Assembly: GCA_023663905.1 (NCBI GenBank)
Contig: JAMPGO010000001.1
Coordinates: forward strand, 750,002 to 814,001
DNA from: Ruminococcus flavefaciens
GTDB taxonomy: Bacteria > Bacillota > Clostridia > Oscillospirales > Ruminococcaceae
Length of the DNA: 64,000 nucleotides
Reading direction: 5' to 3'
Part shown: piece after piece, positions 1,668 to 25,638 of the stretch
Numbering within the stretch: position 1 is the stretch's first letter
How the letters are laid out: every line of letters begins with the position of its first letter
The notes under the pieces: model-generated
Databases searched by the model: none
What the model was told of the DNA's origin: nothing
The model's input: only the letters and a program-made list of their open reading frames with translations
Position numbers and translations under genes: made by a program

Positions 1668-4600
1668 TTAAACAATCGGGTTTGAAATATTAACGCTGTG
1701 GTCAATAACAGGGGAGGAGGGTTCGTTTTTTACGACCTTTACCTTGTTGTAGCATTCCATACCTGTTCCGGCAGGAATAAGCTTACCGATAATAACGTTC
1801 TCTTTAAGTCCGAGGAGCTTGTCGCTCTTGCCTCTGATAGCAGCGTCGGTGAGAGCCTTTGTAGTCTCCTGGAATGAAGCTGCGGACATAAAGCTGTCGG
1901 AGTTGGACGAAGCCTTTGTGATACCCTGAAGCACGGGTGTGTACTGTACAAGCTGTAAATCGTATTCGCCTGCATCAATACGTGCCTGAATCTCGCTGTT
2001 GATTGCATCGATTTCCTTGCTGTCAACGAGTGTGCCTGGAAGCAGATAGCTTGAACCTGTCTCTTCAACCTTAACTTTTCTGAGCATTTGACGGACAATA
2101 ACCTCAATGTGCTTGTCGTTGATGTCAACACCCTGTAAGCGGTAAACCTTCTGGACTTCGTTGATGATATAGTTCTGAACGTCCTGAGTGCCGAGAATGT
2201 TGAGAATATCAGTGGGATAGATATTACCTTCGGTAAGACGTGTACCCTTGGTGATTTTCTCGCCCTCTGAAACACGCTTCTTGAGGTTGTAAGGAATCAT
2301 ATAATTCTCGGATTCGCCTGTCTCGTCGTTGGTAACGATGATGTTTGTGGTGGTCTTTACTTCCTCGATGTGAACAGTTCCCGAAATTCTCGAAAGAATA
2401 GCAGCACCCTTAGGTCTTCTGCTCTCGAAAAGCTCCTCAACACGAGGAAGACCCTGTGTGATGTCCTCCGCGTCGGCAGAAGCAACACCGCCTGTATGGA
2501 ACGTTCTCATTGTAAGCTGTGTACCAGGTTCGCCGATTGACTGCGCAGCTATTACACCTACAGCTTCGCCGACTGATACGATGTTGTTGAATGCGAGGTT
2601 CGCACCGTAGCACTTAGCGCAAACGCCTGTCTTAGCCTTACAGTTAAGGACGGAGCGGATTTTTATCTTCTCAACGCCTGAATCGATAATCTTCTTAGCG
2701 TCAGAGTCGGTAACAAGTCTGTTTCTTGAAACAATAAGTTCGCCTGATTCGTCTCTGAAATCATCGGCAAGGAATCTGCCGACAAGTCTCTCGGAGAGCG
2801 GTTCAACGACTTCGTTGCCGTTTCTGATTTCGTATACCTCGATACCGTCAGTAGTACCGCAGTCCTCCTCACGGATAATAACATCCTGTGAAACGTCAAC
2901 AAGACGACGTGTAAGGTAACCCGAGTCAGCTGTACGGAGCGCTGTATCGGCAAGACCCTTTCTCGCACCTCGTGAAGCGATGAAGTATTCGAGGATATTA
3001 AGTCCCTCACGGTAGTTTGCACGAATCGGGATTTCGATAACCGCACCCGAAGTATTGGCGATAAGTCCACGCATTCCAGCGAGCTGTCTAATCTGTGAGA
3101 TAGAACCTCTCGCACCCGAGTCAGCCATCATCCAGATAGGATTGTACTTGTCGAAGTTAGCTTTAAGGGCATTTGTAACAGCGTCGGTTGTGTCAGTCCA
3201 GAGAGATACAATCTTAGCCGACTTCTCCTGAGCGGAAATATAGCCGTAGTTGTACTCTTCTGTGATTTCCTGTACCTCCGCATCAGCCTTTGCGAGGATT
3301 TCCTTCTTCTGCGGAGGAATTGTCGCATCGCATACGGCAACGGTAAGAGCTGCCCTTGTGGAATATTTATAGCCGAGAGCCTTGATTCTGTCAAGTACCT
3401 CGGAAGTTGTTGTTGTGCCGTGAATCTTGATACAGCGCTCGATGATGTCAGAAAGCTGTTTCTTGCCTACGAGGAACGATACTTCGAGGTCGAACTGCTT
3501 ATCCGAATTGGTTCTGTCAACGTATCCGAGATTCTGCGGAATATTTTCGTTGAAAATAAGTCTGCCGACAGTGGCATTGATAATCTTTGAAACTTTCTTG
3601 TCGCCGATGTCCTTTGTGATTCTCACCTTGATATTTGCGTGAAGCGAAACGTCGTGTTCGTTGTAAGCCATAAGAGCTTCGTTTACATCACGGAATACCT
3701 TGCCTTCGCCGAGTTCGCCGGGCTTAGCCATAGTAAGATAGTATGAGCCGAGTACCATATCCTGCGACGGAACGGCAACAGGTTTACCGTCGGACGGCTT
3801 AAGGAGGTTGTTTGCCGCAAGCATAAGGAATCTTGCTTCAGCCTGTGCCTCAGCCGAAAGCGGAAGATGTACAGCCATCTGGTCGCCGTCGAAGTCAGCG
3901 TTGAATGCTGAACATACGAGCGGATGAAGCTTGATTGCACGACCCTCAACGAGAATCGGTTCAAATGCCTGAATACCGAGACGGTGAAGCGTAGGCGCAC
4001 GGTTGAGCATAACGGGGTGGTCTTTGATAACGTCTTCGAGAGCGTCCCATACCTTATTATCTGCACGGTCAATCAGCTTTCTTGCCGACTTGATATTTGC
4101 AGTAGCCTTTTTGTCAACGATTCTTTTCAGTACGAATGGCTTGAAAAGTTCGAGAGCCATTTCCTTCGGAAGTCCGCACTGGTACATTTTAAGCTCAGGA
4201 CCAACTACGATAACTGAACGTCCTGAATAGTCAACACGCTTACCGAGAAGGTTCTGACGGAAACGTCCCTGCTTACCTTTGAGCATATCGGAAAGGGACT
4301 TCAAAGCACGGTTGCTCGGTCCTGTAACAGGTCTGCCGTGTCTGCCGTTGTCAATAAGAGCGTCAACAGCTTCCTGAAGCATACGCTTTTCGTTTCTGAC
4401 GATAATATCAGGAGCGTCAAGCTCAATCATCTTGATAAGGCGGTTGTTTCTGTTGATAACACGTCTGTAGAGGTCGTTGAGGTCGGAAGTTGCATAACGT
4501 CCGCCGTCGAGCATAATCATAGGACGGAGGTCGGGCGGAATTACAGGAATAACGTTAAGCACCATCCACTCGGGCTTGTTGCCTGAAAGACGGAATGCCT

Positions 4601-5396
4601 CGATAATCTGCAATCTTTTTATAAGCTTGACTTTCTTCTGTCCTGCGGGAAGTCCGACGAGTTCACGTTTGAGGTCGTCGGCACAGAGTTCGATGTTATT
4701 CTTCCACTCAACATCAGTGAGGGCGGAAAACTTCTGACATTCCTCGCACTCGCAGTTAAGCGGATTGTTGTAGCACTGGATTTTCTTTCCCATAAGAGAA
4801 ATCTTTCCGAGTTCTATAAGTCTCTCCTTGTGGGAATCGTATCTTTCGGGGTCGTATTCGTTAAGAAGCTTCTGAATAGCTTCCGCACCCATTTCAGCCT
4901 TGAAATCATCGCCGTATTTTTCGAGGTAAGAGAGATATTCTTTTTCGGAGAGGAGCTGTTTTTTCACAAGCTCGGTATTTCCGGGGTCTGTAACGATGTA
5001 TTTTGTGAAGTAGAGGACTTCTTCAAGGCGCTTCTGGGAGATTTCAAGCACCTGTCCGATTCTGGAAGGAGTACCCTTGAAGTACCAGATATGCGAAACA
5101 GGAGCAGCAAGCTCAATTCTTCCCATTCTTTCACGGCGGACTCTTGCCCTTGTAACTTCAACACCACAACGGTCGCAGACCTTGCCCTTGAAGCGTATCT
5201 TCTTGAATTTTCCGCAGTGACATTCCCAGTCCTTTGTTGGTCCGAATATTTTTTCACAGAAAAGACCGTCTTTTTCGGGCTTCTGTGTTCTGTAGTTGAT
5301 AGTTTCGGGTCTTGTAACAATACCATATGACCAGCTTCTTATCTGCTCAGGCGAAGCAAGACCGATTTTTATTGATTCAAAAGTATTAAATTTCAA
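1668..5396 (-). CDS. rpoC: RNA polymerase beta' subunit
   Basis: The 1,242-residue beta' subunit carries the N-terminal zinc site (CHCGKFK ... CDRCG, about residues 60-77), the invariant [12 protein letters not shown] (about 495-506) whose aspartates bind catalytic Mg2+, and the second zinc cluster [13 protein letters not shown] around residue 920. Its length fits Firmicute beta' proteins. The start codon is TTG (5396-5394), preceded by AGGAGGT seven bases upstream; a strong ribosome binding site with a weak start is notable for a core gene. It follows rpoB by 84 bases on the same strand and is surely in the same operon. The end is followed by a weak-tailed hairpin. Confidence 0.98.
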
Positions 5397-5437
5397 ACTG
5401 CTACCTCCTGCAATTTAATGCTGAATACACGACTTAC

Positions 5438-5462
5438 GCACGGCAGACAGTCTCCGCCGTGC
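5438..5462 (-). other. Intercistronic hairpin between rpoB and rpoC
   Basis: GCACGGC (5438-5444) pairs with GCCGTGC (5456-5462) across an 11-base loop. No T-run follows on either strand, so it is not an intrinsic terminator. It could be an RNA processing or stability element. Confidence 0.5.
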
Positions 5463-5480
5463 ATAAAGTCTCTGATTTAA

Positions 5481-8400
5481 TTATTCATCATACGGGTCGT
5501 CGATGTCGAGAATATCGAAGTTCTCGCCGTCGTCGCTGTCGCTGTCAAAAATATCCTTCTCGTCAGCGTCAAAGTTGAATTCATCATCCTTGTCAACGGT
5601 GTCCATATCATCAATATCCATATCGATGTCGTTTTCGTCGTCGCCGACTCTGAATCCGTCCTCGCCCATTTCCTCGTCAGAATAGCTGTTAAGGTCGGCG
5701 GTTTCCTCTTCCGAGTAACCCTCTCTTGCAGGAATCGGGTCGTCGTCAAAGTCCTGTTTGAGGTCGATTTCCTCCTGATTTTCATCAAGAACCTTTACGT
5801 TGAGACCGAGAGACTGCATTTCCTTGATAAGAACCTTGAACGACTCAGGAATGCCCGGAGTAGGAACGTTCTGTCCCTTTACGATAGCCTCGTATGTGTT
5901 TACACGTCCGATTGTATCGTCAGATTTAACAGTAAGAATTTCCTGAAGCGTATAAGCTGCGCCGTAAGCTTCCAGCGCCCATACTTCCATTTCTCCGAAA
6001 CGCTGTCCGCCGAACTGTGCTTTACCGCCGAGAGGCTGTTGTGTTACGAGAGCGTAAGGACCTACTGAACGTGCGTGAATCTTATCGTCAACGAGGTGGT
6101 GAAGTTTGAGGTAGTACATATAGCCGACTGTTACACGGTTATCGAATTTTTCACCTGTACGTCCGTCATAGAGCGTAAATTTACAGTCTTCAGTAAATTC
6201 GAGGGCTTTAGGATTAATAACCTTATCCATAGCCTTGAGGTCAAACTGGTCGTTCTTGTGTTCCTGGTTGTAGTCGTTTGCCTGACGGAAGCACTCTCTG
6301 ATGTCATCCTCGTGTGCGCCGTCGAAAACAGGAGTCATAATGTGCCAGCCGAGAGCCTTACAAGCCATACCGAGGTGGACTTCAAGAACCTGACCGATAT
6401 TCATACGTGAAGGTACGCCGAGAGGATTGAGAACGATGTCAAGCGGTGTACCGTCGGGAAGGAACGGCATATCCTCTTCGGGAAGAATACGTGAAACAAC
6501 ACCCTTGTTTCCGTGACGACCTGCCATTTTATCGCCGACCGTAATCTTACGCTTCTGTGCGATATAGCAGATAACACGCATATTTACACCTGCACTGAGT
6601 TCCTCGCAGTTGTCTCTTGTGAATACCTTGACATCAACAATAACACCTGCTTCGCCGTGCGGTACTTTAAGCGAATTATCACGGACTTCACGGGCTTTTT
6701 CGCCGAAAATAGCACGGAGAAGTCGCTCTTCTGCGGTAAGTTCAGTTTCGCCCTTCGGAGTTACCTTGCCGACGAGAATATCGCCTGCCGTAACTTCCGA
6801 GCCTATTCTGATAATACCGTTTTCATCGAGATTTGCAAGTGCGTCGTCGCCGACGTTTGGAATATCACGTGTGATTTCCTCAGGTCCGAGCTTTGTATCA
6901 CGGCACTCAATCTCGTATTCTTCGATATGAACTGATGTAAATACGTCCTCACGGACAAGTCGCTCGTTGAGAAGTACAGCGTCCTCGTAGTTGTAGCCTT
7001 CCCACGTCATAAAGCCGATAAGGGCATTTTTTCCGAGAGAGATTTCGCCGTCAGCTGTAGCAGGACCGTCCGCAAGTACCTGTCCTTTCTTGATTTCCTC
7101 GCCTACTGAAACAATAGGTCTCTGGTTTACGCAAGTACCCTGGTTTGAACGCTTGAACTTGATAAGCTCGTGCTTGCGCTCAATGCCGTCGTCGCCGATA
7201 ACGTGGATGTTGTCTGCATCAACATAGCTTACCTTGCCATCGCAGTCCGAAACGATACAAACACCCGAGTCAACGGCTGCCTTGTATTCCATACCTGTGC
7301 CGACAAACGGTCGCTCCGTCTTGAGAAGCGGTACTGCCTGTCTCTGCATATTTGAACCCATAAGCGCACGGTTAGCGTCATCGTTTTCAAGGAACGGAAT
7401 CATTGAAGTAGCGACTGATACTACCATTTTAGGCGATACGTCCATATAATCAACAATATCACGGTCGCATTCGAGAATCTGGTCACGGTGACGTGCGTTA
7501 ACACGAGGTCTTGCAAGCTTTCCGTCAGCTGTGAGCGGTTCGTTTGCCTGTGCTACTACGAAATTATCCTCAACGTCGGCTGTCATATAAACAACTTCGT
7601 TTGTTACAACGCCCGTCTCCTTGTCAACTTTTCTGTACGGAGCTTCAATAAAGCCGTATTCGTTGATTCGTGCGAATGTTGCGAGGTAAGAGATAAGTCC
7701 GATGTTAGGACCTTCAGGAGTTTCGATAGGACACATTCTGCCGTAGTGGCTGTAGTGTACGTCACGAACCTCGAATCCCGCACGGTCTCTTGAAAGACCA
7801 CCCGGACCGAGGGCTGAAAGTCGTCTTTTATGTGTAAGTTCAGCAAGAGGGTTATTCTGGTCCATAAACTGCGAGAGCGGTGATGAGCAGAAGAACTCCT
7901 TCATAGCTGAAGAAATAGGTCTGATATTTATAAGAGACTGCGGAGTAAGTGCGTTTACGTCCTGAGTCTGTATATTCATTTTTTCACGAATACCACGTTC
8001 CATACGGGCATAGCCAATGCGGAACTGGTTCTGGAGAAGCTCGCCTACTGAACGGATACGTCTGTTGCCGAGGTGGTCGATGTCATCAACAGTACCAACA
8101 CCCTCGCAGAGGTTGATGAAGTAGCTGATTGTTGCGAAAATATCATCGAGAATAATGTGCTTCGGGACAAGCTCGTCAGCCTTTTTCTTGATATTCTCTT
8201 CAAGCTCGTCTGCGTCGGCGGAGCTTTCAATGATTTCACGGAGAACCTTGAAGGAAACCTTCTCGTTGATTCCGTATTTTTCAGCGTCAAAGTCAACATA
8301 GCCCTTGATGTCAACCATACCGTTGCCGATAATCTTTGCAACACGCTCAACGAAGCGAATCTGTGTTTCGCCACGCTCGTTGGTGTAGTATTCCTTGGCT

Positions 8401-9398
8401 TCAACGGTTACGAATGCGCTGTATACACCGGCCTGCTCGATTTCACAGGCTTTTTCGTAGCTGACTGTTTCGCCTGCGTCAGCCATAATCTCGCCTGTAA
8501 GCGGATTTACAACAGGCTCTGCAAGAAGATGACCTGCAAGACGTGAAGCAATTCCGAGCTTCTTGTTGTACTTGTATCTTCCGAAACGGCAGAGGTCATA
8601 TCTCTTTGCATCGAAGAAAAGGTTATTGAGGTGTGTAACTGCACTTTCGACTGTAGGAGGCTCACCGGGACGGAGCTTTTTATAGACATCGATAAGAGCG
8701 TCGGAATTGTTTTTTGTCTGGTCCTTCTGGAGAATAGTCTGCTTAAGTCTCTCGTCCTCGCCGAAAAGCTCATAGATTTCCTCGTCCGAACCTACACCGA
8801 GCGCACGGATAAAAGTTGTGAGCGGAATTTTTCTGTTCTTGTCGATACGGACGTACACAACATCATTGGAGTCCATTTCGTATTCAAGCCACGCACCTCT
8901 GTTAGGGATGACTGTGGTGCTGAAAAGGTCTTTACCTGTCTTGTCTTTTTCGGAAGCATAGTAAACACCCGGAGAACGTACGAGCTGTGATACGATAACA
9001 CGCTCCGCACCGTTGATAACGAAAGTTCCGCTGTCGGTCATAAGCGGAAAATCTCCCATATAGATGTCGCTCTCGCTTACGTCGCCTGTTTCCTTGTTGC
9101 AGAGTGTGGCGGTAGCTCTCATAGCGACCTGATACGTAGCACCTCTTGATTTACATTCAGCAAGGCTGTATTTAGGGGTATCATCGAAACGGTAGTCCTT
9201 GAAGTTGAGGACGAGATTGCCGTTATAGTCGGTGATTGCCGTCATATCACGGAATACTTCCTTCAGACCTTCTTCCCTGAACCACTTATACGAATTTTTC
9301 TGAACTTCGATAAGATTCGGCATTTCCAGAGGCTCGGTAATTTTACCGAAGCTCATTCTGACATTCTTTCCCAGCTGCTTAGGTGTAACTTTCACCAT
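5481..9398 (-). CDS. rpoB: RNA polymerase beta subunit with long acidic tail
   Basis: This is the 1,305-residue catalytic beta subunit. Recognisable parts are the rifampicin-region motif [10 protein letters not shown], the [12 protein letters not shown] switch region and the C-terminal [19 protein letters not shown]. The start at 9398 was chosen because a perfect TAAGGAGG lies 6-8 bases upstream; a 24-codon upstream extension has no ribosome binding site. The last 85-90 residues form an Asp/Glu-rich tail beyond the normal end of the protein. rplJ and rplL, which usually precede rpoB, are absent here and lie about 38 kb away. A strong promoter sits 170 bases upstream. Confidence 0.98.
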
Positions 9399-9498
9399 AG
9401 GCGGAACCTCCTTATTATTTTGCTTGCATATCTGTCTGTGAACGGCAGGTATGTTTACTGATTTTTTCAATCCGAAATAAAAAATTTTCTGAAACCTA

Positions 9499-9528
9499 TT
9501 GACAAGTGCATTGAATATATGATATAAT
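9499..9528 (+). promoter_or_regulatory. Plus-strand promoter inside the rpoB leader
   Basis: TTGACA (9499-9504), an 18-base spacer and TATAAT (9523-9528) match the sigma-A consensus in both hexamers. It points away from rpoB and directly at the rpoB promoter. Confidence 0.6.
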
Positions 9529-9574
9529 ATCTTGCAAAGGAAAACAGCACTTTTTTATATCGATACATTGTATT

Positions 9575-9603
9575 ATTCTATCATATTTTTATAAATTTGT
9601 CAA
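9575..9603 (-). promoter_or_regulatory. Main promoter of rpoBC
   Basis: On the minus strand TTGACA (9603-9598), a 17-base spacer and TAGAAT (9580-9575) give a near-consensus promoter. The predicted leader to the rpoB start is about 170 bases. Confidence 0.75.
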
Positions 9604-9630
9604 GCTGTTTTTGAAAAAATTGGCAGTTTT

Positions 9631-9670
9631 ACCGGATTTTCGGAGACGAAAAGTCCGGTTTTTGTTATTT
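9631..9670 (+). terminator. Plus-strand intrinsic terminator
   Basis: ACCGGA pairs with TCCGGT and the inner TTTTCG with CGAAAA (one bulged G), followed by TTTTTGTTATTTTT. Confidence 0.65.
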
Positions 9671-9723
9671 TTATGCAAATTACACTTTTTGTAAAAATAT
9701 AATGCAGAAATTATTTATTTATA

Positions 9724-9752
9724 TTTACATTTTTCAGAAAAAGTGGTATACT
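9724..9752 (+). promoter_or_regulatory. Promoter of the membrane protein-comM-rodA group
   Basis: TTTACA (9724-9729), a 17-base spacer and TATACT (9747-9752) lie about 30 bases before the start at 9783. Confidence 0.6.
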
Positions 9753-9782
9753 ATAGTTAATATGATTTTGGAGTGTGATGAG

Positions 9783-10445
9783 ATGAAAATAAATGAGAAT
9801 TTCGCAGAACAGCCGAATCACGCACATTATATGGCTTGCCTTAAAAGAAAGGGCGAGATTGACAGCTTCTCACGGAAAGTTTTTTTCTACACAATAGCAG
9901 AGTCGGCGGTTTTTCTTGTTATGATTTTTTTCGGGCTGTGGCTGAGCGCCTTATCGTGGATTCCGTCCCTTTGCGGTGAACCGTTTACTATGCCGAACAT
10001 CACAGCATATTTCGCTGAAATAATCCTGATTCCCGTCATCGCACTTGCAGGCTGTGGGAAATATAAAATCTGCGATATTATTCTTTTTGCCGTCCACTGC
10101 GTTATAATTCTGGGATGTTTTTTCGGAGGACTTAAAACGCTCAACACATTTCCGCTTGCTATAGGTGTGATAGGTGCTGTTGTGACGTATCCGTCAATAA
10201 GTGCGTATCTTGATTACCGCCAGCTTATGCAGACTGAAGGCTTCCCGCAGTTCAATAACCTGCTCGCTCAGGCGGAGGACAATCCCGAGTTTATCTCGGA
10301 TTACAGCAAGGAATACCACAACAAAGGCACTGATGATATGTTCATTCAGATTCCTGACAGTCCTGTTGCCGATATGCAGAGTGTTTCAACGGCAAAATCC
10401 GCATATATGGACGATATTAATATAAATAACGATTCAGGAATCTGA
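9783..10445 (+). CDS. Membrane protein of unknown function
   Basis: The 220-residue product has about four hydrophobic segments between residues 30 and 140: a first pair around 33-50 and 65-85, then two closely spaced helices around 95-135. An acidic, probably cytoplasmic C-terminal tail follows. No family is recognised. The start at 9783 is preceded by GGAG with a 9-base spacing; an in-frame ATG at 9762 lacks a ribosome binding site. It is the first gene of a likely operon with comM (28 bases downstream) and rodA. Confidence 0.65.
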   Translation: MKINENFAEQPNHAHYMACLKRKGEIDSFSRKVFFYTIAESAVFLVMIFFGLWLSALSWIPSLCGEPFTMPNITAYFAEIILIPVIALAGCGKYKICDIILFAVHCVIILGCFFGGLKTLNTFPLAIGVIGAVVTYPSISAYLDYRQLMQTEGFPQFNNLLAQAEDNPEFISDYSKEYHNKGTDDMFIQIPDSPVADMQSVSTAKSAYMDDININNDSGI

Positions 10446-10473
10446 TTTCTGAATCCCGAAAGGAGCAATTATT

Positions 10474-12003
10474 TTGTTTGCAAAAATTTCAAGTCTCGGA
10501 CTTTTTGGTCTGAATGCTTTTCCCGTTGATGTTGAGATAGAGACCAGCAGAGGTCAGCCACAGTTTGAAATTGTCGGGCTTCCCGATATAGTCGTAAAAG
10601 AAAGCCGTAACAGAATACGTGCGGTTCTGCGTGCGTGCGATATAAAATTCCCTGTTGCGTCAATAACCGTCAATCTCGCACCCGCAAGCACCAAAAAAAG
10701 CGGTTCTGTTCACGATATGGCTATATTTATGGCTATGCTTGCCGTAATGAAGATGATTGACAAGCCTACGGATGGCTGTGCGTTTATCGGCGAATTGTCT
10801 CTCAACGGCGATTTCAGATATATAAACGGTGTGCTTCCTATGGTTATGCTCGCACGTGAATCGGGTATAAAATCCGTGTTTGTGCCTGAGCAGAATGCCT
10901 ATGAAGCTTCTGTTATAAAAGACGTGAATATATATGCCGTGAAAAATGCGGAGGAGCTTATAATGCACTTCCGTCACCAGAAAACGATGATTCCCTGTAA
11001 GCCCTACATACCGCCTTCCGCTTCGTATAATGATGTGCTTGACTTCTCTGACGTAAAGGGTCAGCAGTCCGCAAAAAAAGCTCTTGAAATCGCTGCTGCG
11101 GGCGGTCATAATGCACTTCTGATAGGTACGCCGGGAAGCGGTAAGAGTATGCTCGCAAAAAGAATGCCGTCAATACTTCCCGAACTGAATTTTGAAGAGG
11201 CTCTTGAAACGACGAAAATCCATTCAATATCGGGACTTTTAACACCCGATAATCCGATTATAACAAGGCGACCGTTCCGTTCTCCGCACCACACGATTTC
11301 TTCGTCGGGACTTGCAGGCGGAGGTTCAATTCCACAGCCGGGCGAGGTATCGCTTGCGCACAACGGATTGCTTTTTCTTGACGAGCTTCCTGAATTTGAC
11401 AGACGGACTCTTGAAATTCTCCGCCAGCCTCTTGAGGACGGAGCGGTTACGATTTCACGTGTTGCAGGAACGGTGACATATCCAAGCAGGATTATGCTTA
11501 TCGGGGCTATGAATCCCTGTCCCTGCGGTTATTTCGGTCACCCGATAATAAAATGCACCTGCTCGCCGAGAAAAGTTTCAAATTATCTGAACAGAATATC
11601 AGGTCCGCTTATTGACAGAATTGATTTGCATATCGAGACTGCTCCTGTTGAGTTCAAAGACCTCTCGTCCGACGGAAAGGAAGAAACATCGGCGGAAATC
11701 AGGAAGAGGGTAGTTATGGCGAGAAAAATTCAGGCAGAACGCTTCAAGGGTACTTCAATAACCTGCAATGCCGTGATTACCGACGACAAGCTCAATAAAA
11801 TGTGTCCTGTTGATGAAGGCGCAGGACGGATATTGCAGAACGTCATTGACAATCTCGGTCTTAGCGGAAGGGCATACAGCAAGATACTGAAAGTCGCACG
11901 CACGATTGCCGACCTCGACAACAGCGAAATCATACACCGTCAGCACATTGCGGCGGCGGCTCAGTACAGAAGCCTTGACAGAAAATACTGGAATGAAAAG
12001 TGA
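10474..12003 (+). CDS. comM: YifB/ComM-family Mg-chelatase-like AAA+ ATPase
   Basis: This 509-residue protein has the N-terminal Lon-protease-like fold of ChlI-type proteins, a Walker A motif GTPGSGKSMLAK (about residues 214-225), the Walker B stretch LLFLDELPEF and the cysteine-rich GAMNPCPCGYFG typical of this family. ComM proteins are hexameric helicases that help branch migration during natural transformation; many family members in non-transformable bacteria have no assigned role. The start codon is TTG at 10474 with AAAGGAG eight bases upstream. rodA follows after 12 bases. Confidence 0.92.
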   Translation: MFAKISSLGLFGLNAFPVDVEIETSRGQPQFEIVGLPDIVVKESRNRIRAVLRACDIKFPVASITVNLAPASTKKSGSVHDMAIFMAMLAVMKMIDKPTDGCAFIGELSLNGDFRYINGVLPMVMLARESGIKSVFVPEQNAYEASVIKDVNIYAVKNAEELIMHFRHQKTMIPCKPYIPPSASYNDVLDFSDVKGQQSAKKALEIAAAGGHNALLIGTPGSGKSMLAKRMPSILPELNFEEALETTKIHSISGLLTPDNPIITRRPFRSPHHTISSSGLAGGGSIPQPGEVSLAHNGLLFLDELPEFDRRTLEILRQPLEDGAVTISRVAGTVTYPSRIMLIGAMNPCPCGYFGHPIIKCTCSPRKVSNYLNRISGPLIDRIDLHIETAPVEFKDLSSDGKEETSAEIRKRVVMARKIQAERFKGTSITCNAVITDDKLNKMCPVDEGAGRILQNVIDNLGLSGRAYSKILKVARTIADLDNSEIIHRQHIAAAAQYRSLDRKYWNEK

Positions 12004-16954: not shown

Positions 16955-19900
16955 TTATTTTGTTGTCTTTCTGCGTTTGTCAATCAGGAATATACCTGCC
17001 AATCCGATTAAGCAAGCACCTGCAAGGTAGAAATTGCGTGTACCTCTTCCGCCTGCTTCGGGCAATGTAACGCCTGTTGAAGTGGGCTTCTTGTTGGTGA
17101 CTGTCAATTTACCGTCGGAAGTATTGCCGACAAGCGTGATACCTTCGCTGTAGGAAATCGGGTAGTAGGATGTTGTGCTGATGTCAGCTTCAACGATGTA
17201 GTAGTAATACGGCTGACCGTCTTTGTTGTAGAGCGGAAGGTTGGAAACGTTCTTTGTCCAGTTAGTATCATTTGAGGTGATTTCAATTGACTGAACAGGG
17301 TCATAACTCTCAATCTTTTTGATATAGTCCTGCTCGTTGATTGACGAGAGCGCTACTTTAACCTGGAAAGTATATGTTGTACCGTTAGCTGTCGCTTTAA
17401 TTGTAGCTGTTCCGTCCATCTTAGCCGTGATAACGCCGTCGTTCAAATCGAATACGTCATTTGCTGTAGCAGACCATACAGCACCGCTGATTTCGTTGCC
17501 GTTTGAATCTGTAAGAACGAGTTTGTTGTTGTCGCCGATGTTGAACTGAATCTGTGTGTCGTCAGTTGATACTTCCTTGGATTTTGCAACGTTAATGGGT
17601 GTTTCTGTATAAGGTGTGAATTTGCTGTCCTTTGAAGCAGTTTTGAGCTGTTCAGCTGAATCAGTCTCGCCCTTGCCTGTGAGCTGGTATAAGCCTGCTG
17701 CTGCGCCGACAAGTCCTGCGTTGTAGTCAATAGTTACTTCGTTTGATGAAGTATCACCGATTTTATCATTATATGAGGTAAAACTAGAATTTCCTGGTCC
17801 ACCGCATAATGCACCTAAAATCGTATGACTTCCATTTATCTGAGTATATGCTTTGTCAACATCTTTCCACTTGTTATAGCCATTCTCTCCGTCATAGCCT
17901 GATAAACCGGAAGCTGCACGATGATGTGGTGAAGTTGCAGATATATCACTATTATAGCCTACAACAAGGCAAACACCTTTATTATTATTGTAGTCATTTT
18001 CACCAAGTATATAACGCATCTGTTTTTCGCACCAATCTGTATAATCACAGTCATCAAAGTTCTTTGTAGCTGAAAGTGCAACTGTCTGTAAAAGTGTGTT
18101 GTGTCTTGCACTGCCCCAAGAATCAAGAACTTTATAGCTGTCGCCTGTGCAGGTCTCGTTTAACTTTGCCTTTAAAGCTGATAAATCATAAGTCGGGTCA
18201 ATGTGCGCTCCGTATACAAGCATTGCTGCAGCTGCAACATCACTATAATAATAGAACCATTTGTGAATGCTTAAACCGCTTAAATATCCTGAACATTTTG
18301 TTTTGTAGCTGTTCTCCTTTGTTGCAAGATACATCCAAGCGGAAGCCCAGGCAAGTTCGCTCTGATTTTCATCATCAGGATTGCCATTATAACTGTGTGC
18401 GCTGTTTGAAGCATTATCATCGGCATACTTATAAAGCTCTTTTGCCTTGGCTAAATAAGTTTTTGAATCTGAATCATCAGGGAAGTTGATTGCATACTGA
18501 GCTAACGTAGCTGCATACTGAGCTGCGATGTTAGCCGAACCCGATGTAACCCACTCTTCTCCGCCGTAATCATCACAAGTTTTTCCCTCAGGAGCCTGCC
18601 ACATAGCCTGGTCTTTTCCTGGTTCACCTCTTTGAACAAGAACTTTAGTAGTGCCGTTTTCTGTTTTAATGCATTCTGTGTAGAAATCGCAGAAATACTT
18701 CATAATGGTCTTGTAGTGTTCTGTCTGTCCGAGGCTGTCAAATGCTTCCTTGAACTCGTAGTAGTTCCATCCGAGAGCTGAAGAAGAAAATCCCTGATTA
18801 AGTCCGAACATTGTGTGGTCGCCTGCGTCATGGTAACCGCCGTTTACTGTACCGCCGAGGTGGCAGTCATTACGCCAGCTGTATGCGCTCGTCTCGCCGA
18901 CATCATCACCGCACATATTAGCGTCGTAGAAGTAGAGCGAGTATTGCAGTGCCTTTGCGTAGTTGCTGTAGTTGTCGTAAGCCTGCGGAGTAATTGTCGA
19001 TGAGCCGGAAACGGGCGACTGCGTTGAGCGGTAGAGGTTGACTGTAATCGAATCGGGTCTGTCGTTTGCCGTATCATTTTCCCAGATTTTCTGAATACCG
19101 AGACTGCCTGTCTGCTGAGTGTTCGTGACAGTGGAAGTCTTATCACTGCTGTTTTTATCGACTTCATTGCCGTCTGTGGATGTCCAGCCTGCGGGAACGT
19201 CTGTTTCGATAATTCTGTACTTGTAAACTGACGGGAGGTGTTCAATTTCCGTTGTCCATTCGTTTTCGGAATCAAGAACGTATGTTGCGCCCTCAACGGA
19301 TTCCCAGCTTGAACCATTGTCTTTGCTGTACTGGAGCTGAACTTCAACGGACTCGGGAATAAGACTTTCGTCTGTCGCAATCCATTCTTTCTTTGCGTTG
19401 ATGTTGATATTATCGGGCGTGTTGGTGATTGTGACTTTACCTGTGCTGGAGATAATACCGTCGGTGGTTGAATATGTTGCTGTGAAGTTGTCAGGTACAG
19501 AAGCTTCCACAACCTTGTAATAGTAAGTGGTATCGCCCTCGCTTCTCGGGAGGTTATCCCACTTGCCCTTCCAGCTGTTGTCTGCGTTGAGCTTGATGTC
19601 AGCAACGCTGAATGAGCCGTCCTTGCTGTCTTCTGTGCATTCAGCGTCAGTATAGCGTTCGAGCGTGACTGTAACCTCGTTTTTCAGCTCGGGGAAGCTG
19701 TCGCAGAACTTCCATTCCTTCTCAACCTCTACAGACATCTCTTCGCCTGCCTGTCTGTTCGGAAGCTGAAGAACAACATCGCCGTTAGCCTTTGTTGAGG
19801 TCTGAGCCTGTAAGCCGTCCACTGCGACAGTTGTTGTCGTTGTCGGAGTTGTCGGCTTCGCTGTGGACTGGGTTGTTGTGGCTGTAGGAGCATTTTCCGT

Positions 19901-22900
19901 TTCAACGCTGTCATTATGATAAGTATATGTTGTATTACTGCCGTCGTTGAGGGTAATTGTAATAGAATCAAGATACTTAAGATTTCCGTCCCACTGCTGA
20001 ACCTGTAAATACTCCAAAGAATTTCCACCAAGGCTGTAAGTATATGTCCAGTTGTTGTTGCTACCTTGGAAGTCATTGGAATTGATAGGGTCAACACCTA
20101 TGTTATTTCCATACAGCTTTACATTTTCGGGCTTGTTATAAGTCTTGAATGTAAGCTTGATGTCCTTGACATTTTCAATTTTCTTGTCGGAACTAAGTCT
20201 CTGACCGTTCTTTGTGAGGTGAAGGAATTTATTTGTGTTGTTGCTGGAATCCCATTCAGTACCTAATGTAACGGTCTCGGGGTCAGGTGTAGGTGTCGGC
20301 TCGGGGTCTGTCGTTCCGCCGTCTGAACTGCCGTCTGTAGAAGTTTGACCAGATGTTAAGGAAATGCCACTTTCTGAAGAACCGAAAATATGATTATAAT
20401 TATCGCCCTTAATTTTTACAGTACCATTTGAATTATCCAATTGAATTGCTATGCCAACAACATTATAATAATCTTTTTGATGACCGAGGTATCCTTGATA
20501 AAGATTAGCGTGTAAATTAACAGTTTCTGTATCACCATTAGCGTAATATAAAGTGATTTTTATGTTTGTATCACTGACACCATTAAATTCAAATTGATTA
20601 ATAGTATGTGCTTCACCCGCAAGAACGCTGACATTCTGAGGAGTGAGGGAGAGGGACTGTGAAGAAACTGTGCCTGCGGATTTTGTCTTTGATTTCAAAT
20701 CAGCGAGCCTGAGAACTCTTGTGCTGAGCTTCGCTTCTGTTGCAGCCGCTTCAACTGCTGTGAGGGAGGCGACGGAGGCGGTGGAAGCTTCATCAATTAA
20801 AGCAGTTCCTGTTAATGCACCACCATTAGTCCATTCCATAAATCTGACAGTTGTTATTTCATCAGCAGAATTTGCTTTTCCTGCACTTTTTGCTAAATTT
20901 AATATATCATTGAATGTATATCTTTTCTTACTAACTTCGCCAGCAATTTGACCTTGGTCAATATTTGTAATGCTGTTAGTTAAAATATGTATCTGTCCGC
21001 CGCCACTTGCGCTAAGTTCGATAAACTCTGTATCAGGATTAGCTTTAGCTGCTGCCAATAAAGCTCCGCTGACTGTAACTGTACCATTATTGCCATTCAT
21101 TCCATTAACCAAAGATGAATTGCCTGAAGAACCTGAACCGCCGCCGCTTGCGCCTGACGGAGCGCCGTCATAGTATGGGCTTCGTGCGTCATCATATGGT
21201 GTTTTAGGATTACCCTCCCAGTGCATAAATCTTATGTACTGAATCTCGTCTGCACTCTTGCCTGAAGCACTGAGTATTTCATTGAAAGTATAACTGCTCT
21301 TGTTTGTAATATTAAGATTTCCGCCCCAGCCACTACCGTCAGATGAAACGTGAATCTGATTTACGTGTACTAAGTCAGTAATAAATACTTCATCGGGGTT
21401 TGCCTTGATTATATCAAGCATTTTACCCTTGATTGTAAGAACAGGGTTTCCGTCTGCTGTACCTAAGAACATATCGCCCTCGTCGCCCATAGCAGACGAA
21501 CCGACAGCAACAGGCTCAATGGAGTAATCGTTCTTTACCCTGAACTCAAAGCCCTGCGTATACTGGTCATAATCGTCGGGAGCTTTTGTTTCATCAAGCT
21601 TATACAGTCCAGGGACAAGATAGCCGTCCTTGATGTAATCGCTGTTGCAGAGAGAGGGATTTGCCTTGAATACGTCATAGAGATTTATGCCCTCCTCGGG
21701 AATCTCAAACGAGGTGTCGTCCGTCGGATAAATAAGGGTCGTGTTCTGACCGTTCTTGACATAGAGCTTGAATTTCGAGCCTGCGAGCTGTTCAGTGAAG
21801 TCCTCGTTGGTCTTCTGGAGCTGAAGCGTTGCACCGCTCTTCTTGATGTCAATCATAGTTACGGCGTCGGGGTTAGAAGTGTTGTTGATTGTGAGGTTAA
21901 CAACTGCCCAGTCTGCTGTGTTGCTGTAATTCTTAGCCTTTGCGACATCATCTGTCCAGTAGACAGTCTTGTTTTGGTAAACGAAGTAAATCGGGTCTGC
22001 CTTTTCGTGATTAGCAGGAACTCCTGTTTCAACAAAGCGGTAGAGTTCGCCGGGTGTTATTTTGCCGAGGTCGATAGTATTTGAAGAACCGCCCGCAAGC
22101 ACGTCGCTCATACCTTCAACAAGTGTACCGTCAGGTTCATCGCCGTTAAAAGTAACTTTTTCAAGCTGGATTACTGCGTTGGGAAGAAGCTCCTCTGTTT
22201 CGCCTGACTTGCTGACTTTCTGGAAGATAAGACCGTAGTCGTTGTAAAAGCTCGGAACGCTTACAGGGAGAGGCATCATCATCATAGCGTCGGGGTCAAA
22301 GCGGTACTTGGGCGTTTTCTTCTCTGAGCCGTCGTCAGCTACGGTAGTATATGTGCCATATGTCTGCGCCGAAACGTCAGCGAGGATTGTACCGTACATT
22401 GCATAAGTTGATGTATTTATGTCAAATGTTTCTGTTTCGTAATTCAAATCTTCTGTTAAAATAGAAGTTGTAACAGTTGAATAAGATGTTTCTATGCGGG
22501 TTGTTGTATTTGCAGGGTTTTCTTTGTTTTCAGTAAAGTAATAATATGTTTCACCAGATTTAAATGACATTTGGTTTCCATAGTATGTTTTAAAAATGGG
22601 ACTCCAGCTACTGGAATTCTCTTGGATATAAAACTCTGCTTGATTTGTATCGTTGTTAAATGTAAGTGATACTCCTACAACACCATTTTTGTCTACATTT
22701 TCACCTAAATCAAGGTCATTACTATCATTTTTCGAGTTGCCAGAATAAGTGTATGTTTTATTCGGGTCATTATAATAAAGAACTACTGTATATCCGCCTG
22801 AAACATCGCCCGCATAACGAACCACATTTAAAGTATATTCAGGCAGATTTTCTCCGCCTATGGCTTTTTTAATTACTGTTGTAGCAATCTCTGTCTGAGT

Positions 22901-25099
22901 AACACCGTCATCTGTTGTAACAGGCTGTGTCTGAGTAACACCGTCATTGTCAGTTACAGGGTTATTGTCAGCGTCTGTAACAACTTCTGTAACAACTACT
23001 GTATCAGCAATAGCTTTACTGTATTCTGTTGTAATTTTAGCTGTATACCTTGGTCCTGTCTGTGCAACAACACCTGTTCCAATTGAGTTGCCTTCCTTCT
23101 TGCTGACAGCGGTAACATTGCCGTTGTCCATATCGAGGTAGAAAACTTCTTCGCTGTCAGTGTCTTTATTGATGTAGATTTCACGTCTCACGATAGCGTC
23201 GTTGCCCGAGCTTTCATCATAGCCCCAGATGTCCTTGAGGTAGATGTTGAATGACTGTGTTGTGTAGCCGTTGTTGCCACTGATTGTAACCGTTGCGGCA
23301 ACCTCGCTGGGTCTGCCCGAGAGGATTGAGCCGTTGCTTCCCTCAACAGGGTCGTTGAATGTACCAGCCTTAACCTGTTCAGCAATTTCAATGGTATAGT
23401 ATGTATCGTCATCCTTTATGAAGCCTGTGGGAGCGGATTTTTCTTTGACTGTGTATACGGTTTTGAAGCTTGCGTTCTCTTCACTGGATTCGAAATCAAC
23501 CTTTGAAGGGAGATTCACATATTCCGTGCCGTTGCCGATTGTGAACGAGTCGATTTCATTTTCGCCCTCGTAAATGCCGAATGTTGCGCCCTCGAGGTGC
23601 GTGTTCGTACCTGTGATGAACTTGTCGAAAGGCACTGCATAGCCGTTTGAAGAGCCGAGAATGTCAACAGTACCTCTGTACGGACGATAGCCGAACTCAA
23701 GTCCGCCTGTGAACGACTGAGCGATAAGAGAGCCTGAGAGGTGACCTTCACAATTATCGGCAGAAGTAACATTTGCATTAGGTGCTAAAATTGTACCGTT
23801 AAAGTTTGCACTTATATAAACATTTTGTGCTTCATAGAAATTATAGAGAAGATTTTCAGAATATGGGTGGTTATTTGTTGCCTCCCAACCCTGGTTTGAA
23901 ACTTCTATATCATTAATAACAGTTTTAACTTTATTTCCTTTTTTACCTAAATCAATGCTCTTTCCGCCGACATTTATAACGATGTTAGCTATCTTAGTAT
24001 ATTCTCTTTTGTTTCCATTGTCGTCTTTCCATTCGTGAGTTACTTTGGGTTCATCTTCAAATTTGGGGATATTAACAAAGTTGAAAGTATAAGCCTGCTC
24101 ACTGCTGGGTACTGTTGGGTCTTTCCATACTTCTTCAGGAATGTTAAAGTAAACAGTTTCATCATTACAATCTTCAGGTACAAAGAAAGTAACAACTCTT
24201 GTTTCATCATTCCAGTCAACATATGCGCCTTGTGTCTGACTAATCTTTGAAAGTTTACTGGATTGGCTTTTGATAAAACTAAATTCGCTATCAAGGTCTA
24301 TCAATGTTCCCTGATAGAATTGAGTAAGTTCATCGGGACAGCCAGAGCAATTTCCGTAATTTACATTGCTTGGACTATGAGAATATTTACCATTAACACT
24401 TGCTTTATGGTGAGTAAATGTAGTTACATCGCCAGCAACTACAAATTGTCTGTAATAATCTCCTTCATCTTGTGTAGCAATATTTTTAATAAATCCATTT
24501 TTTTCATCTGTGCTGTTTTCAGTACCTACGATTGCAGCAGCAAAACCAGTAATACCATTATATTTATCTGTTGCTTCAAGTTTTACTGTATTGCCATAGT
24601 CTCCCTTACCAATCTGATAGTCCCAGTTGGAGTTATTTGTAGTATCAGCATCAACATAAAGAGCAGCAACTCTTCCCTCAGCGTCAGCAGCTTTTGGAGA
24701 AAAACCATTTTCAAGAAATACACAAAAGTCACTTGCAATACCAAGGAAAAATTCTTTTCGTGCAGCTTCACTTACTTGCTGTGGTGTAGTACAACCCTCT
24801 GTCCAGTCACGACCAGTACCAATAAGCAATTCAACTGCTGACGCATACTGACTGCTATGCGCACCATCTTTTTTTGCAACGTTTTCCATATCACCCTGGC
24901 TTAAATTAAAGAGCTTGGTAGAGAGAATATCTCCGACAGGTGTGAAAGAATCGCCTGTCATACCGGAAGCAGGCTCCTGCAAAACCATCGGCACTGTGAA
25001 TGAAACGAGCATAGACAGCGAAACAACAGCCGCAAGCTGTTTCTTGTGCCTGTCGTGTTTTTTCAGATAGTCATCAATCACAGAACGAAAATCTTTCAT
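16955..25099 (-). CDS. Giant sortase-anchored adhesin with a GH9 cellulase domain inside a Cna_B domain
   Basis: This 2,714-residue surface protein has the following order. A basic N-terminus and signal segment (20-40); a choice-of-anchor-A-like region (about 50-475); a SpaA/Cna_B-like domain (485-570); unassigned beta-rich modules (600-960); two SpaA-like domains (970-1075, 1087-1190); a duplicated module (about 1217-1303 and 1338-1425); two more unassigned modules (1483-1577, 1608-1732); a Thr-rich linker (1735-1765); two Cna_B domains (1785-1995). A third Cna_B domain (1997-2672) is interrupted by GH9 (about 2035-2475) and a BIG2-like Ig domain (2510-2585). LPEAG (2679-2683), a membrane helix and a Lys/Arg tail form a sortase signal. 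GH9 residues look intact: DAGD (2091-2094), PHHR near 2392 and NE with Glu2454. It likely binds and cuts cellulose at the cell wall. Parts are strikingly AT-rich. Confidence 0.85.
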   Translation of the reverse strand: MKDFRSVIDDYLKKHDRHKKQLAAVVSLSMLVSFTVPMVLQEPASGMTGDSFTPVGDILSTKLFNLSQGDMENVAKKDGAHSSQYASAVELLIGTGRDWTEGCTTPQQVSEAARKEFFLGIASDFCVFLENGFSPKAADAEGRVAALYVDADTTNNSNWDYQIGKGDYGNTVKLEATDKYNGITGFAAAIVGTENSTDEKNGFIKNIATQDEGDYYRQFVVAGDVTTFTHHKASVNGKYSHSPSNVNYGNCSGCPDELTQFYQGTLIDLDSEFSFIKSQSSKLSKISQTQGAYVDWNDETRVVTFFVPEDCNDETVYFNIPEEVWKDPTVPSSEQAYTFNFVNIPKFEDEPKVTHEWKDDNGNKREYTKIANIVINVGGKSIDLGKKGNKVKTVINDIEVSNQGWEATNNHPYSENLLYNFYEAQNVYISANFNGTILAPNANVTSADNCEGHLSGSLIAQSFTGGLEFGYRPYRGTVDILGSSNGYAVPFDKFITGTNTHLEGATFGIYEGENEIDSFTIGNGTEYVNLPSKVDFESSEENASFKTVYTVKEKSAPTGFIKDDDTYYTIEIAEQVKAGTFNDPVEGSNGSILSGRPSEVAATVTISGNNGYTTQSFNIYLKDIWGYDESSGNDAIVRREIYINKDTDSEEVFYLDMDNGNVTAVSKKEGNSIGTGVVAQTGPRYTAKITTEYSKAIADTVVVTEVVTDADNNPVTDNDGVTQTQPVTTDDGVTQTEIATTVIKKAIGGENLPEYTLNVVRYAGDVSGGYTVVLYYNDPNKTYTYSGNSKNDSNDLDLGENVDKNGVVGVSLTFNNDTNQAEFYIQENSSSWSPIFKTYYGNQMSFKSGETYYYFTENKENPANTTTRIETSYSTVTTSILTEDLNYETETFDINTSTYAMYGTILADVSAQTYGTYTTVADDGSEKKTPKYRFDPDAMMMMPLPVSVPSFYNDYGLIFQKVSKSGETEELLPNAVIQLEKVTFNGDEPDGTLVEGMSDVLAGGSSNTIDLGKITPGELYRFVETGVPANHEKADPIYFVYQNKTVYWTDDVAKAKNYSNTADWAVVNLTINNTSNPDAVTMIDIKKSGATLQLQKTNEDFTEQLAGSKFKLYVKNGQNTTLIYPTDDTSFEIPEEGINLYDVFKANPSLCNSDYIKDGYLVPGLYKLDETKAPDDYDQYTQGFEFRVKNDYSIEPVAVGSSAMGDEGDMFLGTADGNPVLTIKGKMLDIIKANPDEVFITDLVHVNQIHVSSDGSGWGGNLNITNKSSYTFNEILSASGKSADEIQYIRFMHWEGNPKTPYDDARSPYYDGAPSGASGGGSGSSGNSSLVNGMNGNNGTVTVSGALLAAAKANPDTEFIELSASGGGQIHILTNSITNIDQGQIAGEVSKKRYTFNDILNLAKSAGKANSADEITTVRFMEWTNGGALTGTALIDEASTASVASLTAVEAAATEAKLSTRVLRLADLKSKTKSAGTVSSQSLSLTPQNVSVLAGEAHTINQFEFNGVSDTNIKITLYYANGDTETVNLHANLYQGYLGHQKDYYNVVGIAIQLDNSNGTVKIKGDNYNHIFGSSESGISLTSGQTSTDGSSDGGTTDPEPTPTPDPETVTLGTEWDSSNNTNKFLHLTKNGQRLSSDKKIENVKDIKLTFKTYNKPENVKLYGNNIGVDPINSNDFQGSNNNWTYTYSLGGNSLEYLQVQQWDGNLKYLDSITITLNDGSNTTYTYHNDSVETENAPTATTTQSTAKPTTPTTTTTVAVDGLQAQTSTKANGDVVLQLPNRQAGEEMSVEVEKEWKFCDSFPELKNEVTVTLERYTDAECTEDSKDGSFSVADIKLNADNSWKGKWDNLPRSEGDTTYYYKVVEASVPDNFTATYSTTDGIISSTGKVTITNTPDNININAKKEWIATDESLIPESVEVQLQYSKDNGSSWESVEGATYVLDSENEWTTEIEHLPSVYKYRIIETDVPAGWTSTDGNEVDKNSSDKTSTVTNTQQTGSLGIQKIWENDTANDRPDSITVNLYRSTQSPVSGSSTITPQAYDNYSNYAKALQYSLYFYDANMCGDDVGETSAYSWRNDCHLGGTVNGGYHDAGDHTMFGLNQGFSSSALGWNYYEFKEAFDSLGQTEHYKTIMKYFCDFYTECIKTENGTTKVLVQRGEPGKDQAMWQAPEGKTCDDYGGEEWVTSGSANIAAQYAATLAQYAINFPDDSDSKTYLAKAKELYKYADDNASNSAHSYNGNPDDENQSELAWASAWMYLATKENSYKTKCSGYLSGLSIHKWFYYYSDVAAAAMLVYGAHIDPTYDLSALKAKLNETCTGDSYKVLDSWGSARHNTLLQTVALSATKNFDDCDYTDWCEKQMRYILGENDYNNNKGVCLVVGYNSDISATSPHHRAASGLSGYDGENGYNKWKDVDKAYTQINGSHTILGALCGGPGNSSFTSYNDKIGDTSSNEVTIDYNAGLVGAAAGLYQLTGKGETDSAEQLKTASKDSKFTPYTETPINVAKSKEVSTDDTQIQFNIGDNNKLVLTDSNGNEISGAVWSATANDVFDLNDGVITAKMDGTATIKATANGTTYTFQVKVALSSINEQDYIKKIESYDPVQSIEITSNDTNWTKNVSNLPLYNKDGQPYYYYIVEADISTTSYYPISYSEGITLVGNTSDGKLTVTNKKPTSTGVTLPEAGGRGTRNFYLAGACLIGLAGIFLIDKRRKTTK

Positions 25100-25272: not shown

Positions 25273-25301
25273 TTGACTTTTTTTACGGGATATGTTATAT
25301 T
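25273..25301 (+). promoter_or_regulatory. Promoter of the thiamine operon
   Basis: TTGACT (25273-25278), a 17-base spacer and TATATT (25296-25301). Transcription would start at about the first base of the TPP aptamer. Confidence 0.65.
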
Positions 25302-25303
25302 TA

Positions 25304-25392
25304 TTAAGGGAGTCTGTTGACAGGCTGAGAGGGAAGTGCGACTTCCGACCCTTTGAACCTGATTGGATAATGCCAGCGCAGGGACGGATATT
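25304..25392 (+). promoter_or_regulatory. TPP riboswitch (THI element)
   Basis: The aptamer has the conserved CTGAGA (25324-25329), ACCCTTTGAACCTGAT and GGATAATGCCAGCG-CAGGGA blocks in the right order and spacing. Thiamine pyrophosphate binding should turn off the downstream thi genes. A terminator hairpin follows between the aptamer and the thiS ribosome binding site, so control is probably transcriptional. Confidence 0.95.
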
Positions 25393-25404
25393 TTTTGTAT
25401 TCAG

Positions 25405-25443: not shown

Positions 25444-25638
25444 ATGGTTAAAATAAACGGCGAATTAATCTCCGCCGACGGTAAAAGCGTTGCCGTTATG
25501 CTTGCCGATATGGGTTATTCGGAAAAGCGTGTGGCGGTTGAACTCAACGGACAGATTGTCCCGAAGGCAAAGTACGCTGAAACGTTCCTGAAAGACGGCG
25601 ATTCCGTTGAAGTTGTGCGCTTTGTCGGAGGAGGCTGA
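25444..25638 (+). CDS. thiS: Sulfur carrier protein ThiS
   Basis: The 64-residue ubiquitin-like protein ends in Gly-Gly-Gly, the tail that ThiF adenylates and that then carries the thiocarboxylate sulfur for thiazole formation by ThiG. The start at 25444 has GGAG nine bases upstream, just after the riboswitch terminator. An upstream in-frame reading would run into the riboswitch and is rejected. thiF begins one base after the thiS stop. Confidence 0.93.
   Translation: MVKINGELISADGKSVAVMLADMGYSEKRVAVELNGQIVPKAKYAETFLKDGDSVEVVRFVGGG

Follow-up and report, generated by a model that had tools for sequence, protein, structure and literature searches.

Two pilus proteins come closest to the arrangement described here: RrgA, whose insert we take to lie in a CnaA-like domain, and Spy0125/Cpa, whose insert presumably lies in a CnaB-like one. 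Both proteins, in the parts of the source consulted, share with our case a sortase-assembled pilus setting and a large domain placed between the residues that contribute to the isopeptide bond, but their inserts are vWFA, thioester or CnaB-like domains (PMC12617251), whereas the insert of the present protein is a glycoside hydrolase, with other contents of the slot in relatives. The same parts list RrgA and Spy0125 as examples of domain insertion into CnaA/CnaB folds of pilins, give Lys633/Glu694/Asn717 as the residues of the Cna_B bond in 1D2O, and state that CnaB bonds link the first and last strands (PMC12617251).

Regarding the enzyme, the cellulosomal GH9 proteins of Ruminococcus flavefaciens FD-1 belong to the same catalytic family and are found, in the part of the source available, among the dockerin proteins, for example SIGN-GH9-CBM3-Doc (PMC2930009). 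The genome studied here also has GH9s with CBM3 and dockerin matches. Nevertheless, the GH9 of our protein differs from the cellulosomal ones in that it has no dockerin, carries a covalent sorting signal and falls in a distinct GH9 clade. A further parallel in the same part of that source is ScaE, a sortase-anchored cohesin scaffoldin of R. flavefaciens, where a sortase likewise ties plant-fibre-degrading activity to the wall; however, ScaE holds its complex by cohesin-dockerin contact, whereas the present enzyme is part of the anchored chain (PMC2930009).

Among the literature matches listed, from a search with subscription literature mostly outside it, there was no report of an enzyme housed in a Cna_B or placed at the tip of a pilus, and the part of PMC11557425 consulted contains no match for pilus or pili. 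What is new is the enzyme cargo. The preliminary description of this DNA had said that a wall-anchored adhesin with an enzyme grafted into a stalk domain looks new; domain insertion into the CnaA and CnaB folds of pilins is already known (PMC12617251).

The window, by which we mean the whole analysed stretch of 64,000 nt, comes from Ruminococcus flavefaciens (GCA_023663905.1, contig JAMPGO010000001.1, positions 750,002-814,001 of the forward strand). It contains a giant ORF, open throughout, with these features in window coordinates:

16955-25099 (-): gene of the giant sortase-anchored adhesin, 2,714 aa, the whole ORF including the stop codon
24956-25099 (-): N-terminal signal region, residues 1-48, similar across the family
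23690-24745 (-): pAdhesive_15 (ice-binding-like adhesive) domain, residues 119-470 (Pfam, E 2.7e-27)
19760-23614 (-): middle stalk, residues 496-1780, with SpaA-type domains (three stretches, Pfam) and unmatched modules
19418-19732 (-): intact Cna_B domain, residues 1790-1894 (Pfam Cna_B profile 1-87 of 87)
19019-19108 (-): first half of the split Cna_B, residues 1998-2027, with the predicted isopeptide lysine K2004 (Pfam and family profiles)
17702-18961 (-): GH9 catalytic domain, residues 2047-2466, with D2091, D2094 and E2454 (Pfam Glyco_hydro_9)
17351-17602 (-): putative Ig-like (BIG2-like) module, residues about 2500-2583 (from its position and the relatives' Big_2 matches)
17087-17302 (-): second half of the split Cna_B, residues 2600-2671, with Glu E2637 and Asn N2669 (Pfam and family profiles)
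16958-17065 (-): LPEAG sorting signal, membrane stretch and basic tail, residues 2679-2714 (sequence, TIGR01167)
16941-16907 (-): terminator-like stem directly 3' of the giant gene, a consensus match alone
25192-25164 (-): promoter-like site 5' of the giant gene, a consensus match alone

Promoter-like sites number 22 across the region against 18.0 (sd 4.5) by chance, which is no excess, and terminator-like stems 12 against 7.0 (sd 2.9). A TPP riboswitch aptamer at 25296-25401 (+) of the window (63.9 bits) lies ahead of a divergent ORF starting at 25607 and has no link to the adhesin.

As expected for a pilus tip adhesin, the protein has both an N-terminal adhesive domain (pAdhesive_15) and a C-terminal sorting signal. 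The latter, at residues 2679-2683, passes the LPXTG_anchor model TIGR01167 (18.0 bits, cut-off 15.9), but its motif LPEAG departs from the canonical LPXTG, and this counts against our best explanation. A dockerin, as a cellulosome enzyme would carry, does not occur in the protein among the Pfam matches up to E 1. Regarding the BIG2-like Ig domain that had been placed after the GH9, Pfam gives no Big_2 match in the window protein at E<=1; the module is suggested by its position and by Big_2 matches in 7 of 15 family pieces. Against PDB sequences, the N-terminal adhesive region gave nothing useful (best E 0.1), and residues 1180-1780 gave nothing at E<=1.

Our best explanation, which we hold to be probable on the sequence comparisons that follow, is that this protein is one of a family of giant sortase-anchored, pilus-tip-type adhesins found in ruminococci, whose membrane-proximal Cna_B domain bears a GH9 as cargo in one loop, where a Lys-Asn bond would clamp it.

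A family of giant adhesins and its gene neighbourhood

The C-terminal 721 aa were searched against 125 genomes of the genus and also against 396 genomes of the taxonomic family, with two candidates scored per genome; further relatives came from the second half plus anchor used as query, a part of whose matches was fetched. Looking elsewhere for a GH9 inside a Cna_B, as had been suggested, was fruitful: at least 24 proteins in at least 23 genomes have a GH9 at the same place. With the genome of the window counted, these are at least 22 of the 125 from the genus, plus one genome of another genus (G499).

Besides the window protein there are 23 relatives: 14 are long ORFs chosen for their GH9 match, and the other 9 were found through the second half. 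In the 14 chosen by GH9, the match begins in the first half in all but L040. Since each set was chosen by the other half, the unselected half is the test: the second half was found in 10 of 10 complete proteins of the GH9-chosen set (L039 and L041 had been recruited by a match that already included it), and the first half was found by profile in 8 of the 9 chosen by the second. As the family profiles derive from the first set plus the window, these proteins score high on them by construction. Over all 24 proteins, the first half was found by profile 13-37 residues before the GH9 in 23 and by eye in the remaining one (L075); the C-terminus is intact in 20, all of which have the second half, and the other 4 end at a contig end. 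The insert measures from 570 residues in the window protein to 1,312. Among 36 free GH9 ORFs in the fetched loci, neither half scored over 15 bits in any.

Furthermore, both pAdhesive_15 and a similar signal region are present in all 18 N-terminal pieces scanned (the window and 17 others) of the 24 proteins, which means that the whole proteins are related and not just their ends. One member, L040 (2319-10539 (-)), seems broken by a frameshift near the N-terminus, where an ORF of 575 aa (8815-10539) overlaps another of 2,199 aa (2319-8915); this frameshift may be real or a sequencing error.

Regarding the neighbourhood, 18 of the 24 loci have more than 2 kb downstream, and in 15 of these an LPXTG pilin-like protein of 510-667 aa lies directly downstream, followed by a sortase. 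Upstream sequence is available for 19 loci, and 16 of them have a signal peptidase gene there. Neighbours were called by BLAST to five proteins of an operon in the window genome, with its pilin and first sortase as references. The view of the window protein as a single wall-anchored adhesin was thus incomplete, as it belongs to a conserved family most of whose loci with room (15/18) stand beside pilus-type genes. The window, L040 and L041 are the loci that lack both the downstream pilin-sortase pair and the upstream signal peptidase.

The operon used as reference is on contig C4 of the window genome (L077:11415-16694 (-)) and encodes a signal peptidase, a pilin, a sortase, an LPQTG protein of 440 aa and a second sortase. 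Its first sortase is of class C (274.9 bits, cut-off 160) and its signal peptidase of type I (126 bits, cut-off 47). There is no giant gene between signal peptidase and pilin, where relatives have one, and the L040 genome has the same operon, also without a giant gene (L109); in the genomes of L041 and L067 the contig is too short to show this. Regarding the pilins themselves, the SpaH/EbpB major pilin model stayed below its cut-off of 95 bits in the three scanned (35, 65.6 and 77.5), RrgB_K2N_iso_D2 passed in two of the three, and of 17 pilins only one has the YPK pilin motif, at an atypical place. The pilus reading therefore rests on gene order, sortase class and the pilin-like partners.

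The family looks like one of pilus-tip adhesins, of which the window member stands alone. No pilin or sortase gene, of class C or otherwise, adjoins the window gene, and none of the five sortase matches of the genome is on the window contig. The protein may serve a pilus encoded elsewhere in the genome or may be anchored directly to the wall. The second option, carried further, is a strong competitor to which we give a little under an even chance: the window protein, of which only the ancestors were pilus tips, would have left pilus biology and would now stand alone as a wall-anchored adhesin-cellulase that depends on a housekeeping sortase for its attachment. The missing pilin and sortase neighbours and the terminator-like stem directly after the gene agree with it, as do the other sortases of the genome. 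Furthermore, the closest GH9 relative L040, L041 and the GH9-free relative L067 also have no adjoining pilin gene. However, the operons without a giant gene in both the window and L040 genomes suit a tip protein supplied in trans, and the anchor tail of the window protein resembles those of the pilus-linked relatives.

The GH9 domain and its descent

As the preliminary description had stated, the GH9 is complete and its catalytic residues are in place: residues 2047-2466 match Glyco_hydro_9 over profile positions 1-443 of 444 (E 2.1e-75), which is a full-length catalytic domain, with D2091 and D2094 in the motif HDAGDH and E2454 in NEVTIDYN. We take the Asp pair and the Glu, the latter as the acid, to have their usual catalytic roles in GH9. 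The nearest solved sequence in PDB is the endoglucanase 2yik (E 5.2e-62), presumably a clostridial cellulase, which is not known to lie within a Cna_B domain. The window GH9 is a predicted endoglucanase.

The idea that ruminococcal GH9s are mostly dockerin-bearing or free is in line with the seven other GH9s (of nine) of the window genome that were scanned, where a dockerin match occurs in four (two over the cut-off) and CBM_3 passes its cut-off in three.

A tree of 55 GH9 domains groups the 24 family members on one side of a single branch and keeps them apart from 31 free GH9s. This branch has a support of 96/92 and was recovered in 97% of 200 bootstrap trees; the tree is midpoint-rooted and has several long branches. 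The free GH9s are the top matches to the window protein plus some from its own genome; the 55 rows are what remained after six duplicate loci and sequences shorter than 370 residues had been dropped, and members were labelled by ORF length. The topology points to one origin for the family GH9s, and the window GH9 pairs with that of L040. Many independent insertions of GH9 find no support in the 55-row tree.

That the GH9 is no longer an enzyme and now works as a surface carbohydrate-binding module is, in our judgement, unlikely. Actually, something of the kind may have happened in L049 (4627-12408 (+)), where the catalytic Glu is lost with other changes nearby and the GH9 may be a binding domain by now, and the window GH9 stands on a long branch (0.79). 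However, the window GH9 keeps both HDAGDH and the Glu of NEV..DYN, like most family rows read (the Glu of L051 lies beyond its contig end), and PDB endoglucanases align over nearly the whole domain.

One Cna_B domain in two halves

In the window protein, Pfam matches positions 3-39 of the Cna_B profile just before the GH9 and positions 34-83 about 560 residues further on, and a six-frame search of the genome recovers the same two pieces (22.3 and 22.1 bits). The halves score 23.2 and 26.1 bits singly and 51.1 bits joined, over profile positions 3-83 of 87. We consider them one domain because the profile parts are complementary, without overlap, and joining them gives nearly the sum of the two scores. 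Thus the claim that a GH9 sits inside a single Cna_B of a sortase-anchored adhesin is borne out. The start of this last Cna_B had been put at about residue 2001; the split stands, and its extent becomes about residues 1998-2671, with an insert of about 570.

With family profiles built leaving the window out, the window halves score 49.9 and 45.7 bits, while 500 shuffled versions of the C-terminal part gave at best 5.6 bits for each half. At E<=0.1, the Pfam Cna_B model picks up no more than 10 of the 15 family pieces, and the remaining assignments come from the family profiles built here. When 19 joined halves were compared with 16 intact Cna_B domains from the giant proteins, profile to profile in hhalign, the match reached 99.5% (E 3.8e-22, 103 columns, score 122.4), and a looser template set of 22 Cna_B stretches, six of them partial, gave 99.4%. 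As order controls, the first half alone aligned with template positions 2-32 and the second alone with 45-108, and the swapped order scored 80.5. Against PDB sequences the joined halves matched no Cna_B structure, the best hit (E 0.33) being another protein at chance level.

The residues of the predicted bond are distributed accordingly over the two halves: K2004 precedes the insert, and E2637 and N2669 follow it. All 15 first halves compared have the Lys of K-x-W, all 11 second halves have the Glu and the Asn, and the 20 C-terminally complete proteins, window included, keep all three (18 by pattern, L065 and L066 by eye). The Cna_B fold probably closes around the insert, and an isopeptide bond is predicted to form; a Lys-Asn bond, if formed, would tie both ends of the insert together.

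Each half alone does exceed the Cna_B cut-off of 22.3 bits, which would also suit a GH9 lying between two separate truncated domains. We find this very improbable, as the halves are complementary with a joined score near the sum, the Lys is always in the first and the Glu and Asn always in the second, and the GH9-free L067 keeps both. An assembly chimera of two genes, imaginable in a fragmented genome (71 contigs, 82% complete), was given practically no weight and dropped, being largely refuted by the recurrence of the same arrangement in 23 genomes.

The proposed clamp and the contents of the slot

The preferred reading, a pilus-tip-type adhesin with a clamped GH9, could work as follows. The N-terminal pAdhesive_15 domain and the stalk modules would hold plant fibre or another surface, and a class C or housekeeping sortase would tie the C-terminus to a pilin or to the wall. 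The last Cna_B would close around the insert, with an isopeptide bond between the Lys of the first half and the Asn of the second, catalysed by the Glu. This bond would carry the pull on the stalk past the enzyme, so that the GH9 is spared tension and could cut cellulose near the anchor end. The suggestion that the Cna_B acts as a holder of the enzyme fits this reading.

Ruminococcal fibre holding is usually ascribed to cellulosomes, carbohydrate-binding proteins and type IV pili. If the proposal is true, a covalently anchored, pilus-linked adhesin with a clamped cellulase would be a new route of fibre attachment, and the link between adhesion, mechanical load and hydrolysis would become testable. 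Furthermore, the family shows that a natural loop in a very stable domain can take inserts of about 570 to 1,300 residues.

The slot has other contents in relatives. The best-scoring match to the first 1,200 residues of the window protein (38%) is L067 (3-5765 (+)), which aligns on both sides of the GH9 with about 480 residues replaced by 16; both Cna_B halves are kept with the Ig-like stretch alone between them, so that L067 is a natural GH9-free version. A gene that flanks L067 has a copy in the window genome, with no giant gene found next to that copy. In L068 (4480-12960 (-), genome G122) a first half, seen by eye, is separated from the second half by 409 residues containing a GDSL/SGNH hydrolase (E 6.4e-18). 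From the same genome, L094 (3-10580 (+)) has a GDSL hydrolase within a Cna_B array. L070 has Big_2 and no enzyme match, and L071 looks alike by eye. In L075 (3176-10606 (+)) the GH9 at residues about 1460-1919 looks circularly permuted, with profile positions 40-420 followed by 3-42, inside a split Cna_B. The part of L050 after its GH9 matched none of the PDB sequences at E<=0.1.

A more general proposal, which we offer tentatively and would not yet bet on, is that the membrane-proximal Cna_B is a covalently clamped socket for cargo of several kinds. Its one loop would take interchangeable contents, either enzymes (GH9, or in another genome an SGNH hydrolase) or binding modules. The Lys-Asn bond would bypass the cargo, which would stay folded under load, and fibre would be cut where pili hold it, independently of the cellulosome.

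CBM77, which we take to be of a pectin-binding type, and CBM_4_9 precede the last Cna_B half in L114, L116 and L113. In L114 and L116, giant pilus-linked proteins of another genus, the CBM77 lies in a long stretch before that last half.
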